A program made the position numbers and the translations under genes. From Actinomycetota bacterium (GTDB taxonomy: Bacteria; Actinomycetota; Actinomycetes; Mycobacteriales; SCTD01), in NCBI GenBank assembly GCA_019348355.1, contig JAHWJP010000008.1, positions 1 to 41,814 on the forward strand: a stretch of DNA of 41,814 nt, read 5' to 3'. The notes beneath the pieces are model-generated. The model had not been told where the DNA came from. It saw only the letters and a list, made by a program, of their open reading frames with translations, and did no database searches. Shown here one piece after another: positions 1 to 8,965 of the stretch. The first letter of the stretch is position 1, and every line of letters begins with the position of its first letter.

Positions 1-522
1 GACCAGATATCGCTCGTCGGCCTCGAAGACGAAGTGATCGCACCCGCCCCGGTGCACTCACCAGGGAACCTCCACGGCCGGGCTTAGCCGGCAGCCCGAC
101 AGCGCGTCGCTGCGGGAGAAGCCCGCGCATCTCTGCCCGTTCTGGCCGCAAGCGAGCGCGCGCCGGTGTTGTGCGCTCATCAAGCAAGAGCGCCATCGCG
201 GCAGATGAGGACGTTGCAGACTGCGACCGGTTCCGATGAGGAGGTTCCCGCATTCGCTCGCGCGCTCAACCTCGCTAGCCTCCTGGCGCGGCGGATGTGA
301 ACGGCGCAGAAGCACCCGCTCGATGCGGGCCAGCCAAGCCGTCGATGCGTTGTTTCTGAACCATGCTCAGGCGGGGGGCGAGCTACGCGGAGACGTCGGG
401 TTAGCCCGCGCACCTGCGGCGGAACCTGCTACTGCCCGGAGCGGGCCACGCATGGTCCTGACTCGTTATAGCGTCCCGTTACCAACGGTGGCCGCCAGGG
501 CTTGCGACGGGGGGGTGGTTCT

Positions 523-1707
523 GTGCCCACTGGATCCGCTCATTCTGCTGCGGGCCAGGCTCTTGGATACTTTCAGCAATGTATGCGCGCTCTTGCTGAG
601 CTCGGCCGTCGGGGGTCAGTTAATCCGTCTGTCGAGATGCGCCTCGAAACACTTGACGACATAGATTTCAGCCAGGGTGGCTCCCCGACCGAGTTACTAC
701 AGACGAAACACCACATTGGTCCGAGCACGCTCACGGTCAACAGTGTCGATCTTTGGCGAACACTCAACGCCTGGATGGATCTCTCTCCGGAGGCACGGCC
801 CGTCCTCAGGCTGGTGACCACGCAGATTGCAGACGGCGACGTGGCCCTTCTCCGTGAAGGGGATGGGCGGGACCCCCTGGCGGCCCTCGAGTCGCTGCTT
901 AGCGCGGCAACCGATTCTGAGAACTCCACCTCAAAGGTTTGGCGTGACCGGTTCCTTGAACTTGAGGACGACGTCCAGATCTCATGCGACCCCTGCCGCT
1001 GGTGGTCTCGATTCCGAACTCGTGCGGGTGTTCCGATACGCGATGACGCCGGGCAAGGAGGCCGCATTCCCTGGTTCAACAAATCGTCGTGGACGATCCT
1101 TGCCCTCCTCAAGGGCTGGTGGGCAGGCATAGCGGTTCGACTGCTCGATAGATCCTTATCTGCCGTTACAGGAAACGACCTGGCGGTGCAAGTCGCTGAC
1201 ATAATCGATCAAATGCGCGCAGATAGTCTTCCTGTCGACCCGGAAGTTCTGCGACGATTCGACGAGTCGATCACGGACGGTTACCAAGACCGTCCATTCG
1301 TCCATCAGCTCGCATGGATTGCGCTGGAGAATGAACGCCTATGGAAGGCGATTCGCGACTACCACCGCGCGTACACCCAGCGGTCATTCTGGCTCCGGTA
1401 TCAACTCGTGGGGGAGCAAGAGTTAGACCGGTTCGCCTTTAAGCTGCACGACGAGTGGGAGCAGGTCTTCGACGAGGAACTCGCCCGCATGGCTGGCGAC
1501 GGCCGCCCAGGTGAAGCCGTCGGTCAGGAGATCCTGAGGCGAGTTGCTCGAGAATGTCGCTCGCGTCTGCGCGAACGATTCGACGAGCCATGGTTCAACC
1601 GCGGCATGCTGCACGCCCTGGCTGACGGGGAGTTGGGACAGCTGGTTGGCTGGCACCCGGAGTTTCAGACCCGCCTAGAAGGGCTATTAGGCGATGTCGC
1701 AATCTGA
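523..1707 (+). CDS. ABC-three component system protein: N-terminal restriction-endonuclease-like domain plus ABC-3C C-terminal domain
   Basis: N-terminus AAGQALGYFQQCMRAL...VEMRLETLDDIDF...ELLQTKHH resembles the DUF4297/PD-(D/E)xK-like D...QxK pattern. C-terminus AIRDYHRAYTQRSFWLRYQLV...ELDRFAFKLHDEWEQVF resembles the ABC-3C CTD. Track ORF starts at TTG 502; GTG 523 after a G-rich SD-like stretch fits the family N-terminus better. Confidence 0.78.
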   Translation: MPTGSAHSAAGQALGYFQQCMRALAELGRRGSVNPSVEMRLETLDDIDFSQGGSPTELLQTKHHIGPSTLTVNSVDLWRTLNAWMDLSPEARPVLRLVTTQIADGDVALLREGDGRDPLAALESLLSAATDSENSTSKVWRDRFLELEDDVQISCDPCRWWSRFRTRAGVPIRDDAGQGGRIPWFNKSSWTILALLKGWWAGIAVRLLDRSLSAVTGNDLAVQVADIIDQMRADSLPVDPEVLRRFDESITDGYQDRPFVHQLAWIALENERLWKAIRDYHRAYTQRSFWLRYQLVGEQELDRFAFKLHDEWEQVFDEELARMAGDGRPGEAVGQEILRRVARECRSRLRERFDEPWFNRGMLHALADGELGQLVGWHPEFQTRLEGLLGDVAI

Positions 1708-2197
1708 TGGGCCACCCCGGAAACGCCGCCGAGCGCCCGAAGCCATCGCGTTGTTCAACGAGGCATTCACGTCCGAGCTCTTGGTCAACGCTGCCTGGGC
1801 GAAGGAACAGGACAGTGGGACGGGGCTTAGCTGGCCCGCATCCTTTTTGATTCTGCCACTCGTCCTGCACCCGCCTACACGCGAGTCGCTCCCGCGGTCG
1901 CCGAACGTGACACTTGCTGCGTGGGCGCTGCGGCACCCGAGCTATTCGCAGGCCATCGACAGTCGAGTCGCGGCTCTCGCCGACGTGACCAAGCGCGCCA
2001 TCCGATTTGGCATGCGGTTCGAGCGTCTCGAGTTGCGCGGGACCGAAGTGGTCGCTACGGCGCGACCTAGGAGTCCGAACGTGCAGACTTGGCCCGAAGA
2101 TCTCACGGGCGCCACTCGGGCCGCGCGCGTCGCAGGCCGGTGGTTTCGTTCGACCGACGTCTACACCGCGTTCAATCTGCTGGGCATCGGAGGCTAA
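1694..2197 (+). CDS. Three component ABC system middle component
   Basis: RAPEAIALFNEAFTSELLVNAAW...GLSWPASFLILPLVLHPPTRESLP...RVAGRWFRSTDVYTAFNLLGIGG matches the middle-component pattern. Overlaps the upstream gene and abuts the downstream ATPase. Confidence 0.82.
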   Translation: MSQSDGPPRKRRRAPEAIALFNEAFTSELLVNAAWAKEQDSGTGLSWPASFLILPLVLHPPTRESLPRSPNVTLAAWALRHPSYSQAIDSRVAALADVTKRAIRFGMRFERLELRGTEVVATARPRSPNVQTWPEDLTGATRAARVAGRWFRSTDVYTAFNLLGIGG

Positions 2198-4159
2198 ATG
2201 CAGATCCTGTCAGTGGGCGTTTATGGGCACCACGGTCGGACGCGGCAAGTCGATTTCGTCGCTGGGAAGCTTAACATTCTGACTGGCAAATCGAAGACTG
2301 GCAAGTCCGCACTTCTGGACATTGTCGAGTTCTGCCTAGGTCGAGACACAGTCACGATTCCAACCGGTGTCATCAGCGACAAAACGGCCTGGTACTCGAC
2401 TCTCGTTGCCTTCGGTGAAGAACGCGTGCTCATCTGTCGACCGAACCCGGAGACGGCCAGTACTAATCGCGGCATGGTCACCATAGGCGGTCGCGACCTC
2501 TTCGCGCCGCCAGATAGTTCGGGTCTAGAAGTGAACGCGGACACTGACGTCGTCAAAGACATCTTGACCGAACGTCTCGGAATTGATCGTTTCACGGTCG
2601 ATGCCGATCAGGGCTCGCTCAGGGACTCCTTCGCCGTGTCCAGCAAGCAGGCGATCTTCTTCAGTTTCCAGAACCAGAATGAGATCGCGAACCGTTCGGT
2701 GCTGTTCCACCGCCAGGTTGAGACCGACATCAAGCCCACGATCAGGGGGGTATTGCCCTACTTCCTCGGTGCAGCAACGCCGGAGCAGTCCGCCATCCAA
2801 CGCCAACTCCTCCAGGCCCGCCGGAGCCTCCGCAGGATTGAGATGGATATCCGTTCGGCGGAAGCTCACTTCAGTCAGCAGAACGACCGGGTGTTCCAAC
2901 TGGTGCGTTCCGCGGTCTCGCTGGGCGTCCTGGACGAGACGGACCAGGTCGTCGGGGACCCGAGCCGGCAGCGCGAAGTCTTGGAACGTGTTGCGGCTTA
3001 TCGGTTGGACTCGGCCGGAGGCGCCACTGGAGATGTCGGGGCGAGGCAGGCGGAACTCCTCGGTGAGGCGACGTCTCTGCGGAGACGGTTGCAGGAACTC
3101 GATGATCAAATCGGCGTCGTTGCCCTTATCGATTCCGAGCAGTCAGATGCCACCTCAGAGCTCGCCATTCAACGGGACCGGCTAACTGCGCTGAACTTGA
3201 TGTTGCCGCGGTCGAAGCAGAATAGCACCGACGTGAGCACGTGCCCTCTTTGCGACCAAGACTTACCGAATCCTGACGAGTCGGTCCAGGCGCTCCAGGT
3301 GCTTCTTGTGGAACTCGATGGAAGGCTCACCAGCTCGCGGAGTTCCTTAGCTCGACGTGAGGCGCTGCTCTCTGAGCTTCGCCGGTCTAGGGATCGCATG
3401 CGAGACGCACTTCGCGAGAACGTTGCCGATCTCGACGCAGCCGCGAATCAAAATCGTGCGCTGGCAGACGGACGCGCGCGCCGGGAGCAGATCGCCTTTC
3501 TTCAAGGCCGTGTCAGCCAGGAACTCGGGGGCGAGGTGCACCTTGTAGGCGGAGTAGGCGATCTTCGCGCTGCAGAACGGCGGATCCGGGGTCAAGTGGC
3601 CAAGTTGGAGGAGTTGTTCGAAGCCGACGATCCGACGGACTCGCTGCGCCGCGCCGTCGACGGTCTGAGCGAGCTAATCACGGACTACGCGCGCGCCCTT
3701 CAACTTGAAGGCTCCGGGTATTCGGCTCGACTCGACCCGATCGAGTTGACCGTGTCGTACCTGCGCCCTGGCGGCCGAGTCACATTGGCGCGCATGGGCA
3801 ACGCTGAGAACTGGGTCGGGTACCACTTAGCTGCACACCTGGCACTTCATCATTGGTTCGTGACGCACGATCGCCCGACGCCCCGGTTCCTCATGCTCGA
3901 CCAGCCGACGCAAGCATTCTTTCCCGAGGAGATAGTTGACGCCGCCGAGGACGAAGACGCGGATTGGTCAGCGGTTCGACGACAATTTGAACTTTTTCGA
4001 GATGTCGTCGCCAGCTTGAACGGCGAACTCCAGGTCATCGTGTGCGATCACGCGAACCTTGCCGACGACTGGTTCCAGGCAGCGATCGTTGACAACTGGC
4101 GGAACGGAGTGGCACTGATTCCGGACGGTTGGCCTACCAAAGACGAGGTCGTGGCTTGA
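2198..4159 (+). CDS. DUF3732-type SMC-like ABC ATPase (ABC-3C system)
   Basis: Walker A LTGKSKTGKSALLDIVEFCLGRD; coiled coil with zinc-hook-like CPLCDQDLP; Walker B-like RFLMLDQPTQAFFPEE; VIVCDHANL near the C-terminus. Confidence 0.87.
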   Translation: MQILSVGVYGHHGRTRQVDFVAGKLNILTGKSKTGKSALLDIVEFCLGRDTVTIPTGVISDKTAWYSTLVAFGEERVLICRPNPETASTNRGMVTIGGRDLFAPPDSSGLEVNADTDVVKDILTERLGIDRFTVDADQGSLRDSFAVSSKQAIFFSFQNQNEIANRSVLFHRQVETDIKPTIRGVLPYFLGAATPEQSAIQRQLLQARRSLRRIEMDIRSAEAHFSQQNDRVFQLVRSAVSLGVLDETDQVVGDPSRQREVLERVAAYRLDSAGGATGDVGARQAELLGEATSLRRRLQELDDQIGVVALIDSEQSDATSELAIQRDRLTALNLMLPRSKQNSTDVSTCPLCDQDLPNPDESVQALQVLLVELDGRLTSSRSSLARREALLSELRRSRDRMRDALRENVADLDAAANQNRALADGRARREQIAFLQGRVSQELGGEVHLVGGVGDLRAAERRIRGQVAKLEELFEADDPTDSLRRAVDGLSELITDYARALQLEGSGYSARLDPIELTVSYLRPGGRVTLARMGNAENWVGYHLAAHLALHHWFVTHDRPTPRFLMLDQPTQAFFPEEIVDAAEDEDADWSAVRRQFELFRDVVASLNGELQVIVCDHANLADDWFQAAIVDNWRNGVALIPDGWPTKDEVVA

Positions 4160-4375
4160 CACACCGAAGGACCTTTCGAGGCGCTGCCGGGTCGGCCGTA
4201 GGACCTGCTGAAACCGCCGTGGCTTCGAAGGATAGGAACGTCCTCGAATACGTCGACGAGCTGTGGCGTGGCGTGGCAGACCCGGAACGTCCACACATCG
4301 GCAGTAGCACGCGACACGCGGCATGAGCGCGCGTTCGCGGTCCGGTCCTAGCTGGACGCCGAATGAGGCCCGGGA

Positions 4376-4393
4376 CGGTAACGACGGTTACCG
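4376..4393. repeat. Inverted repeat CGGTAAC-gacg-GTTACCG upstream of the STAND-like gene
   Basis: Perfect 7-bp arms, 4-nt spacer, about 120 nt upstream of ATG 4516. Confidence 0.4.
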
Positions 4394-4515
4394 GGGACGA
4401 GGGCATGCGTGACAGTCAAGGAGGCTTCGTCACGAGGTGCAGCCAGGAATGGCTATCCCGTGGATTGAGCATGACTGGGCCCACGAGACCAGCGTCGCCA
4501 GGGTAATCTCCCTGC

Positions 4516-7500
4516 ATGTCAGTCCTTGGCCCATTTGACGTGTCCGCGGAACACGTTGCTCGATTGGGCGACAATTTCACGATTTTCATGAATGCGTTAC
4601 TAGAAGCTGAGAAAGCCGCAGCGGAGGCAACGTTTGATTTACAGGTCGACATCCGCCAGACCGTTCCCGACGGCGGAGTGGACGCACTCTCGTTGAGCAG
4701 CACAGGTTCCCTGACCATTCCCACGGGGGACACGGTTTGGCAGTACAAGCGAAGTGATCTCACCCAAAGCAAGGTTAAGGCCGAGTTAAAGAAGGCAAAG
4801 TTTGCCAAGAAGCGCCTCAAGGCAGGCGCCAGCTACCGTCTGGTCCTAGGTGTCCCGATCGGGGGTAAGCAGTTAGTCGCCCGCCGCCTCGGGCTAGAAG
4901 AAGGCCTAGCAACACTGGGCGTGACCTACGATGTGGATTTGCATAAGATTATTGAGGGGAATGAACTGGCGAGATGGGCCAGCACCTTTCCCGCTATTTC
5001 GGTTCTTCTTCAGAGGCTCATACATGGCGCAGGGCCATCCGCCGTCGATTACGACCAGTGGTCATCAAGCAGCACCCATCAAGCACCGTGGGTGACCGTA
5101 AGTTCAAGGGAAAGTACCCGACTTGCCCTTATTGATGCGCTGCAGGATCGAGCGGTAAAGAGCGTTCGTTTAGCGGCTGTCACTGGGGTGGGTGCAACCA
5201 GAGTCGCGTTAGAAGCCGTGCGCGGAAGCGGACTCGAACGCCTTGTGGCCTATGTCCTTAACTCGGACGAGCTGAATACCGACTACCTTGCGAGCCTGTC
5301 GTACGGGAAACGCAAAGCAATCATTGTTGCTGACAATGCAAGTCAGAGCAGACACATGCGACTACTCGAAGCGCTCCCAGTGGACTCGGACATCCGCCTC
5401 CTGACTATCGGGCGCGCCGACGCCTTTGCGGACTTGTCGGGTGGCCCGGTGTTGCCAGTGGAGGCCCTTCCGGAGGACGAGCTTCTTCAAATCCTCGAGT
5501 CAGAAGATCTTTTATGGCCGGAGGCCAGGAGATTCGTGGCTGCCTTCTCTTTTGGAAATTTGTCTTTCGCCAGGCTGATCGCGCAAAGAGTTGCTCATGA
5601 CGACAGCCTGTCCGCAGCAACTGTATTTAGTGAGTCTCTACTGCAGCAGCTGTTCGAAAGTTCACTTCCAGTGGGTGCCGATTTTTTAGGAGCGGCGGCG
5701 CTGGCGCTCTTCACCAGAGTTGGCTTGCGTCAAGAAAAAGCCTTTGAAGCAAGGATCATCGCCGAGGGACTTGGGATTGATCTTGCCTTAATCCAGAGTG
5801 CCGCGAGGACGCTCCGATCGGCGGGTTTTCTGACCGACCGTGGGCGGTTCAGTTTAGTCAGTCCGGAACCAGTCGCTGTTTACCTAGCGGCAAGAGCCTG
5901 GGAAGAGCTTGGCGAGCAGGTCACGCATAGCTTGCTTCCGCTGCTCAAGCCTGACATGGCATACGCGCTATTCGGCAGGCTCGCGAGCCTGGGAACTGTA
6001 GGCAGTTCAAGTATTTACGTACGTGACCTGTTTGCTGATAGTGGCCCATTTGCGTCTCTGTCTTCGCTGTCAGCAGGTACGAACGCAGAAAGTCTTTCCC
6101 AGCTGGCTGTTGCCATGCCGGGAGAGGTGTCGCGGCGCCTGTCCGCACTGATCACCGAGAGTTCGATCGAAGTTTTGAGAGATAACCGACCTGTGCGTCG
6201 GGGGCTCGTTAATAGTTTGCTGAAACTTGCCTGGCGACAGGAGTTCTTTGCCGATTCGGCGGATTCCTTAATGCGACTCGCGGTTGCCGAGAATGAAACC
6301 TACGGAAACAATGCTACAGGCGTTTTCGTGAGCCTGTTCGGCGCAGTTCTGCCAGCCACGAGCGCGTCTCCCGCTCAGAGGCTTGCCTACCTCGGGTCAC
6401 GCGTTGCTTCTGCTGACGTCGCATCACTGACAATTCTCACAGACGCTCTCGGTAATAGTCTGCAAGCGAACGAGTTTGTGATGGTCTCTGGAGAACTGCA
6501 AGGGGGTTCAGTCGCTGCTCGCAGAGGATCCACGTCTACCCTTGAAGAGTTGCACGCATATCGGGCTGGGATTCTTGACATCTTGCTCGCTCTTTCAAGC
6601 TCTTCCCACAATCAGGTCGCCGAAAGGGCACGAACCCTTATTCTGGCTGCTACCCACGGACTGCTCTACGACCCAGACCTCTTGGACGCAGTTGTCGCGC
6701 AAGCGCTAGCAGTGGGCACTGAAGACTTGTTGAACGGGTTACGCCGCGAAGCTGATGAGCTCGGCCGACTTTTCGAAAGGGTCGAGGATCAGGATGATCC
6801 GCGCATATATGGCCTCGACCGGTTGAACATGGTGTTGCCGTCGCCAAACGACGAGCAGGCACTCGATCTTCTCCTGCAGACTGCAAGTTGGGATGCGGAG
6901 GAGACGAATCTGGAACAGAAGCTGCTAGATCTCATTACGCCATCACCGTCGCTGCGAGACGACTTGCTTAATTTGCTGCGAGTCGCAGAGGTCCCTGCTG
7001 CATATTTTGCTGGTCGCGTACTCTGCCGGCTGGACAGTGGTTGGTTTCAGGCAGAGGACGGGCTCGTCGCTCAAGACGTCGCCGTGAGGAATATTCCAGC
7101 CATCGTGGGCGCGCTTTGGTTCATTCATGACACCGCTAGTGCGGACGCCTTCGACCACTTCCTGGCCCAGGATGTCGGGGCTTCTCTTCCGTTGGACACT
7201 CAGATCCAGATTATGGTGCGCGGGCCCATGTCTGACGCGGGACTAGCAAGGTTGCTTGACGCTTCATTAGAACTGAGGCCCGGGATCCTCACACGCCTCA
7301 TATTCGGCTGGCATGGCAGGTTGCCAATTGACAGCCAGGTGTGGCTCCTGAATCGGTGGCTTGTAGGCATCACTGACCAATTTGACTACAGCATGGTGGT
7401 CGACATGGTCAGCATGTGGCTTCATAAGGAAGCCGAAGCGCCGCCGCAACTTATCTTGCCCCTTGACGAGCTCGTTCTAATGCGACGCAGATTCCCAAGT

Positions 7501-8112
7501 GTGGGGCAGGAGGCTTGGGATTGGTCACGGCTCGTCTCGAAGCGGCTGCCAGAACTTGCTCCGAGTGTTATGGATCTCCTCTTCGACTTGATGGTCTCGG
7601 GTGAAATCTATGCGTTTGACGGCAGTCAGGACGGCAAAACACTTCGGGAGTGCGTTGCGGCTGCACCGTCCGCGGCATGGTCGCGATTGGCATTACAGCT
7701 CGAGAGTCCGAAAAGGAGAGCTTTTGTTGGGCTCTCTTTGCGCGGCTGGGCTTTAGATGCCATTCCGGTGAGCGAGATCCTCGATTGGGTAGGCAATTCC
7801 ATCGAGCGTGCTCAGTCTGTCGCGAATCTCGCGCCGGTTGGCGATAAGGAACTTCACCCGCTCGCTAATCATCTGCTCGACAGATTCGGCGACGATCACG
7901 GTGTCCAAGGAAGTCTCTATGGGACGCTGACTACCGGGATTTTCTCGGGCAACGAGTCTGACCGGCTGCTGCGGTTTCAGGAGCAGGTCACGAGTTGGCT
8001 CAGCAGCCCGGATATCACAGCTGGTGCCACGGCTTGGTGTCGCAAGATGATCGAAGTCTTCAAGCGTCAGCGGGAACTAGCCCTTCAGCGGGAAGCCGAG
8101 CGCGACCTGTGA
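4516..8112 (+). CDS. Large STAND-like NTPase-fold protein with N-terminal PD-(D/E)xK nuclease-like domain and long alpha-helical C-terminus (putative anti-phage protein)
   Basis: N-terminus ...VPDGGVDAL...DTVWQYKR (D...QxK). Central VRLAAVTGVGATRVALEAV aligns with G.xGKTRxALEA but with K to A. Walker B-like KAIIVADNA; LLTIGRADAF; long helical C-terminal region. Confidence 0.62.
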   Translation: MSVLGPFDVSAEHVARLGDNFTIFMNALLEAEKAAAEATFDLQVDIRQTVPDGGVDALSLSSTGSLTIPTGDTVWQYKRSDLTQSKVKAELKKAKFAKKRLKAGASYRLVLGVPIGGKQLVARRLGLEEGLATLGVTYDVDLHKIIEGNELARWASTFPAISVLLQRLIHGAGPSAVDYDQWSSSSTHQAPWVTVSSRESTRLALIDALQDRAVKSVRLAAVTGVGATRVALEAVRGSGLERLVAYVLNSDELNTDYLASLSYGKRKAIIVADNASQSRHMRLLEALPVDSDIRLLTIGRADAFADLSGGPVLPVEALPEDELLQILESEDLLWPEARRFVAAFSFGNLSFARLIAQRVAHDDSLSAATVFSESLLQQLFESSLPVGADFLGAAALALFTRVGLRQEKAFEARIIAEGLGIDLALIQSAARTLRSAGFLTDRGRFSLVSPEPVAVYLAARAWEELGEQVTHSLLPLLKPDMAYALFGRLASLGTVGSSSIYVRDLFADSGPFASLSSLSAGTNAESLSQLAVAMPGEVSRRLSALITESSIEVLRDNRPVRRGLVNSLLKLAWRQEFFADSADSLMRLAVAENETYGNNATGVFVSLFGAVLPATSASPAQRLAYLGSRVASADVASLTILTDALGNSLQANEFVMVSGELQGGSVAARRGSTSTLEELHAYRAGILDILLALSSSSHNQVAERARTLILAATHGLLYDPDLLDAVVAQALAVGTEDLLNGLRREADELGRLFERVEDQDDPRIYGLDRLNMVLPSPNDEQALDLLLQTASWDAEETNLEQKLLDLITPSPSLRDDLLNLLRVAEVPAAYFAGRVLCRLDSGWFQAEDGLVAQDVAVRNIPAIVGALWFIHDTASADAFDHFLAQDVGASLPLDTQIQIMVRGPMSDAGLARLLDASLELRPGILTRLIFGWHGRLPIDSQVWLLNRWLVGITDQFDYSMVVDMVSMWLHKEAEAPPQLILPLDELVLMRRRFPSVGQEAWDWSRLVSKRLPELAPSVMDLLFDLMVSGEIYAFDGSQDGKTLRECVAAAPSAAWSRLALQLESPKRRAFVGLSLRGWALDAIPVSEILDWVGNSIERAQSVANLAPVGDKELHPLANHLLDRFGDDHGVQGSLYGTLTTGIFSGNESDRLLRFQEQVTSWLSSPDITAGATAWCRKMIEVFKRQRELALQREAERDL

Positions 8113-8734
8113 GCTTCGAAACGACAGTCGGCGCCGGCACCGCTGCAATCCGCAACCCCACCTCTTCCACCATTGAGATAGGGCCCCGACGCTGGACTTG
8201 CTTCCGCCGCGGAGCGGCCTAGAGGGTCGTCGTCCTTGGCCCGCCGAGCAGCGAGTTGGCAATCTGGCCGTGGACGAATCCCCGGTCACCGCCAGTCTTG
8301 TAGCAGCTCCGCTGCTCATGGAACTTGGCGCTGCTCGGCACTCGGGCATTCTTCACTGCGATGGCGCGCAGGCAGCGCCCGGCGGACGCGACTAGCAGCA
8401 TCAGGATGCACACGACGTTCACCCGCACGGCCGTCGTGAAGTCGATCGCCGGCCGAGCGCAAAGTCCGCCGGCAGCAGCGCCGTGCCCGCATCCGCTTCT
8501 CGGCATGAGCGGTCGCTTGGCTAGCTGCGGATGTGCCGGCCGTAAGACCGGCTACGGACGCCCCGAGCCAGCCAACGCCGCCCCCATGCGCCAGATCTGA
8601 CGCGGCAGCCCGGTGCATCGGCGGTTCGGATTCTCGAGCCTGCTGCCCGAGGCTGCCGCAGGGCGAGGTTCTCGTACACGAAGGGCGTGTCGCCTCCGAG
8701 ACCCGGCTGGGGCCCGCCGAAGGCGGACGCGGTC

Positions 8735-8965
8735 TCAGTCGTTGCCGAAGCTGAACGCCGCCCACGGCCGGGCGATGATGACCTCCTCCTTCACCCCGGG
8801 CGGGACCGAGCCGTCGAGCTGCTTGGGCGTCCACGACTCGGTGCGGACCCACTGGGAGCCGCAGCTGCCGCAGGCGAACAGCGGCTTGTCCTCGTACACC
8901 TCGTCCGTCGGACCCCAGTTGCACTTGTCTTGACAGGGGGAGCTCTTCAGGGTCACCGGGGTCAT
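8735..8965 (-). CDS. Small zinc-ribbon-like conserved actinobacterial protein
   Basis: 76 aa with CQDKCNWGPTDEVYEDKPLFACGSCGSQWVRTESWTPKQLDGSVP; Cys pairs CxxxC and CxxC. Confidence 0.65.
   Translation of the reverse strand: MTPVTLKSSPCQDKCNWGPTDEVYEDKPLFACGSCGSQWVRTESWTPKQLDGSVPPGVKEEVIIARPWAAFSFGND

Follow-up and report, generated by a model that had tools for sequence, protein, structure and literature searches.

The gene at 4516–8112 on the forward strand of the window (the whole 41,814-nucleotide stretch of DNA that was analysed) encodes a predicted nuclease-STAND protein resembling PD-Lambda-4_A, in which the Walker A lysine is naturally replaced by alanine. The intact reading frame starts with ATG and specifies 1198 amino acids, and the assignment draws on this frame, the PADLOC profile PDLC03991 and an AlphaFold2 model. 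The gene encodes either an immune switch that can do without the usual binding of ATP or a copy that was disabled only recently. We put at about one half the probability that the receptor is intact and that its switch has given up canonical ATP binding, the nucleotide step being non-canonical or absent.

The codons act ggg gtg ggt gca acc aga at 5182–5202 read T223-G-V-G-A227-T-R229, as the sequence-only reading had reported, and codon 227 is gca (5194–5196). Instead of GxxxxGK[ST], the degenerate Walker A segment on the forward strand (A221-V-T-G-V-G-A227-T-R, 5176–5202) gives A221-VTGV-G226-A227-T228. Two further near-invariant residues of the site were also replaced, the first Walker A glycine (G221A) and the cysteine that follows the Walker B aspartate (C275A). 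The Walker B region itself, IIVADNA (5320–5340, forward strand), retains the hhhhD pattern as IIVAD273. Among 81 aligned relatives, lysine occupies position 227 in all, glycine position 221 in 79 and cysteine position 275 in 79, and the Walker B acid is aspartate in 74 and glutamate in 6. Asparagine after this aspartate is frequent in the family (37/81 relatives), so the DN of the window protein is ordinary. A scan of the whole 1198-residue protein found no second GxxxxGK[ST] motif, and we rejected the idea of a P-loop at another place in the protein; no relocated compensating lysine was visible in the sequence around the loop. An arginine near the sensor-1 strand, R300 (5413–5415), is unusual for the family and could sit near the phosphate site; we make no claim on it because its alignment to the TTR arginine of NB-ARC proteins was not clean. 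Two other members (L083 and L086) carry alanine at the first Walker A glycine and keep the lysine, so the truly unique change is K227A.

AlphaFold2 modelled the full-length protein with a mean pLDDT of 88.3 from a 40-sequence family alignment and confidently predicted four parts, a restriction-endonuclease-like domain, a STAND/AAA+ NTPase, a winged-helix region and an alpha-solenoid, all encoded on the forward strand. The first (residues 1–170, 4516–5025) is recognized by its D..D..QxK motif and by the way helices and strands follow one another in the models, which together point to a nuclease of the PD-(D/E)xK type; the motif residues D52-G-G-V-D56 and Q76-Y-K78 (4669–4749) were verified at the codon level and are invariant in a 38-row alignment (A5). 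The NTPase domain (residues 206–330, 5131–5505) was delimited by profile and fold matches. It is followed by a helical and winged-helix region (about residues 331–450, 5506–5865), placed by secondary structure in the models, with all six conserved columns of residues 331–480 kept, and by a long, nearly all-helical solenoid (residues 451–1198, 5866–8109), the presumed sensor, whose Foldseek matches are mostly HEAT-type solenoids. As these solenoids dominated the full-length Foldseek search, we modelled the N-terminal 462 residues alone (pLDDT 90.3, pTM 0.88). This model matched Cdc6/ORC, Apaf-1, CED-4 and NRC2/NRC3 at E values of 1e-7 to 1e-5, and also RPP1. Among PDB entries, the family profile matched the NB-ARC of NRC1 at E 2e-6 and PH0952, a STAND protein, at E 8e-5, and both searches support the P-loop NTPase plus winged-helix fold of STAND/AAA+ proteins. 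Residues 222–226 form the loop joining beta1 (216–221) to alpha1 (227–235) in the AlphaFold2 models, which places GATR at the true P-loop position, and the confident model predicts an undisturbed P-loop fold. The sequence-only reading had proposed a nuclease-STAND architecture, an intact fold with a Walker B-like segment, an N-terminal D...QxK pattern and a long helical C-terminus, and each of these agrees with the models, the fold searches and the intact motif residues.

The Walker A survey covered 82 aligned sequences, with GKT in 58, GKS in 23 and GAT in the window protein only. Adding six further close actinobacterial relatives to the 81 aligned ones brings the relatives with lysine at column 227 to 87; some relatives, L021 and L044 among them, are truncated and lack the P-loop region. 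The nearest relatives share 33–36% identity with the window protein, and most family members about 20%. In the phylogeny the window protein forms one branch, 1.08 substitutions per site in length, whose sister group, with support 1.0, is an actinobacterial clade that includes Leifsonia sp. Root4 (L018), Okibacterium (L020), Nocardioides zg-1308 (L022), L103–L106 and L108, with L111 placed there by identity. The clade members are full-length colinear with the window protein and have the nuclease motif and the solenoid in common with it, whereas every one of them that spans the P-loop keeps the canonical GK[ST]R that the window protein lacks. The suggestion that GATR might mark a conserved subfamily was consequently rejected, as none of the 87 relatives carries it and the window protein stands by itself on a long branch beside a canonical clade. 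The comparison of homologues that the sequence-only reading had proposed thus found the canonical GK[ST] at the same column and GATR in one protein alone; its central observation, a natural lysine-to-alanine change at a genuine P-loop, held. Judged from the alignment, the substitution is real, lineage-specific and so far unique.

The PADLOC PD-Lambda-4_A profile PDLC03991 matched the protein at E 6e-27 (91.7 bits; residues 7–715, profile positions 4–747 of 1283), and the same model matched all 40 members of the family alignment (A4). Pfam and NCBIfam gave no match to the protein. The PADLOC Avs models gave none at E up to 1 for the protein and none at E 0.001 for the 40 family members, and by these models the protein is not an Avs member. 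The PD-lambda-4 system has been described (Vassallo et al. 2022, PMC9519451). We did not find a second PD-Lambda-4 component, as implied by the _A of the name, beside the gene; the three genes that share its island matched LmuA, LmuB and LmuC only. With no adjoining second component, we file the protein in the A protein family and not as a complete PD-lambda-4 system. Since PADLOC assigns it to PD-Lambda-4_A, the protein is a variant within a described family and not the member of a wholly undescribed one; what is new within the family is the natural and possibly functional loss of the ATP-gripping residues.

Relatives are spread over many bacterial phyla and the archaea, and the D..D..QxK motif is present in 70 of the 82 aligned rows, the window protein included. 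Twelve relatives have no nuclease motif (L045, L051, L052, L066, L068, L075, L077, L085, L086, L088, L092 and L094), and in those that were scanned an alpha/beta hydrolase, a TIR-like domain or a calcineurin phosphoesterase replaces the nuclease. Such modular swapping of the N-terminal effector is typical of immune STAND receptors. No conserved partner gene adjoins the approximately 85 relatives, so the family looks single-gene. A Haloarcula marina relative (L010, 2713–6490) is divided into two overlapping genes, one for the nuclease and NTPase and one for the remainder, and adjoins an LmuB-like gene. A search of phage records gave no match.

Directly upstream of the nuclease-STAND gene lies a complete-looking Lamassu (ABC-3C) operon of the order CTD7, MC3, DUF3732 (502–4159), also on the forward strand. 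It encodes an LmuA-like protein with a CTD7 domain (502–1707, start codon uncertain; Pfam CTD7 5e-32, PADLOC LmuA 5e-39), an LmuC-like middle component MC3 (1694–2197; Pfam MC3 1e-24, PADLOC LmuC 0.003) and an LmuB-like SMC-type ATPase with DUF3732 and an intact Walker A, GKSKTGKS (2198–4159; Pfam DUF3732 9e-44, PADLOC LmuB 1.5e-109). A QTKHH stretch at the N-terminus of the CTD7 protein is suggestive of a Cap4-like nuclease. The GC content of the first 8 kb of the window is 0.56–0.64, compared to about 0.68–0.80 rightward. In three genomes of the same genus, the DNA upstream of the acylphosphatase gene (acyP) has no match to the island and a GC content of 0.70–0.76, and in one locus (L133) a MutM-looking protein adjoins acyP. 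In the source genome, contig C73 carries the mutM region and, after it, DNA of lower GC content, and acyP is on contig C136. These data are most simply read as an island of lower GC content, specific to the lineage, that separates mutM from acyP, made up of window positions 1–8900 and the C73 DNA and split over the two contigs, with the nuclease-STAND gene belonging to this insertion. On the C73 side (G000, L140) there are ABC-transporter-like, methyltransferase-like and glucokinase-like ORFs.

The main competitor of an intact receptor is a recently inactivated allele that ceased to bind ATP, and hence to work, so lately that stops and frameshifts have not yet gathered; we regard this as a serious contender, somewhat less probable than the preferred reading. 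It would fit a substitution seen in a single sequence, the death of related systems upon engineered K-to-A change (PaAvs5, LypB) and the decay known within the family: an actinobacterial relative, L110 (G168), apparently decaying, has several broken frames and retains GKTR, and the L105 (G882) copy has an in-frame TGA. The single occurrence of the change and the loss of function in the engineered mutants likewise count against our preferred reading, as does the lack of a close relative that would permit a selection test. Against recent inactivation, however, the three separate site losses required at least five base changes, and yet the 1198-codon frame is intact. Of the 46 columns outside the NTPase with conservation of at least 85%, 43 were kept, compared to 7 of 10 inside it, where the three lost ones are all site residues; this clustering is only suggestive (hypergeometric P = 0.06). 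By region, conserved columns were kept at 11 of 12 positions in the nuclease, 6 of 6 in the winged-helix region, 19 of 20 in the middle and 6 of 7 at the C-terminus. Identity to the sister clade is 0.29–0.33 in the NTPase versus 0.39–0.41 in the nuclease, and the same proportion holds between clade members (for example, 0.41 versus 0.57), so there is no domain-wide decay of the NTPase. Neither the conserved columns nor the domain identities showed decay of the whole gene. Under modelled neutral drift, the probability that K-to-A arises and that 1198 codons acquire no stop is at most about 1e-5 and decreases over time, which makes inactivation improbable unless K-to-A was a single tandem mutation; one tandem double mutation could have produced K227A recently, and this would weaken the argument.

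An error of sequence, an objection already raised in the sequence-only reading, or of assembly is very improbable. The assembly is of the metagenome type and the genome is a draft (259 contigs, 88% complete), but K-to-A needs at least two base changes within one codon, which makes a simple base error unlikely; two more site residues are altered in separate codons, the frame is unbroken across 3.6 kb, and the insertion between mutM (C73) and acyP (C136) is consistent with both contigs. Dependence on a partner, with sensing or recruitment left to the P-loop-less protein and the ATP-driven step to another cellular protein that has a canonical NTPase, we consider unlikely. It would resemble sensor/helper NLR pairs, with LypA/LypB and NLRC4/ADR1-L2/Pb1 as natural precedents, and the Lamassu operon, which encodes an ATPase, ends about 360 bp before the gene on the same strand; that ATPase is, however, SMC-like and not STAND, and the relatives are without a conserved partner gene. 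A same-family helper was sought in the source genome (88% complete) and none was found, and the nSTAND_NTPase5 search of this genome returned only matches below the cut-off, as it did in control genomes.

For the preferred reading of an intact receptor, we propose that the protein would be an NLR-like receptor of the PD-Lambda-4_A family that acts against phages as a one-gene system, in which the STAND NTPase and winged helix may restrain the N-terminal PD-(D/E)xK-type nuclease and the C-terminal alpha-solenoid may detect a phage product. Oligomerisation and activation of the nuclease are presumably controlled in canonical relatives by the exchange of ADP for ATP at the P-loop. The window lineage has lost the phosphate-gripping site (K227 and G221, with C275) and has retained the predicted fold, the nuclease and the presumed sensor, and activation would for this reason most likely proceed without canonical nucleotide binding or hydrolysis, through a ligand-driven rearrangement that is nucleotide-free or involves weak non-canonical nucleotide binding. 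The more extreme form, a stand-alone immune nuclease without any nucleotide cycle whose STAND module is a purely mechanical, ligand-driven scaffold, is possible but rather doubtful. NLR/STAND immune receptors are thought to require P-loop ATP binding for activation, and mutants with an engineered K-to-A change usually serve as the inactive control. The same change, arisen naturally in an otherwise intact bacterial receptor, offers a direct test of the need for nucleotide, and the canonical relatives at 33–36% identity serve as matched comparisons.

Compared to known systems, the window protein differs from the PD-Lambda-4_A members in having lost the Walker A lysine, the first glycine and the Walker B cysteine together. 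It has the layout of effector, STAND NTPase and C-terminal repeats in common with Avs (AVAST) proteins such as PaAvs5; Avs5, however, needs its Walker A lysine, an engineered K-to-A change having abolished PaAvs5 immunity (PMC12931631), and no PADLOC Avs model matches the window protein. The CARD-NLR-like LypABC system is also of the immune type, and its LypA, like the window protein, has an ATPase-like domain naturally without Walker A/B residues, which nonetheless appears essential, whereas engineered K-to-A in LypB abolished lysis (PMC13236601). LypA differs in that it is a peptidase and works with LypB, a canonical partner, whereas for the window protein, a predicted nuclease, we found no partner. 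Natural loss of the P-loop in a receptor of the NB-ARC type is also seen in plant Pb1, where the P-loop is absent, and in other NLRs with a degenerate P-loop (PMC3478704); these are eukaryotic, with effector and sensor domains other than those of the window protein.
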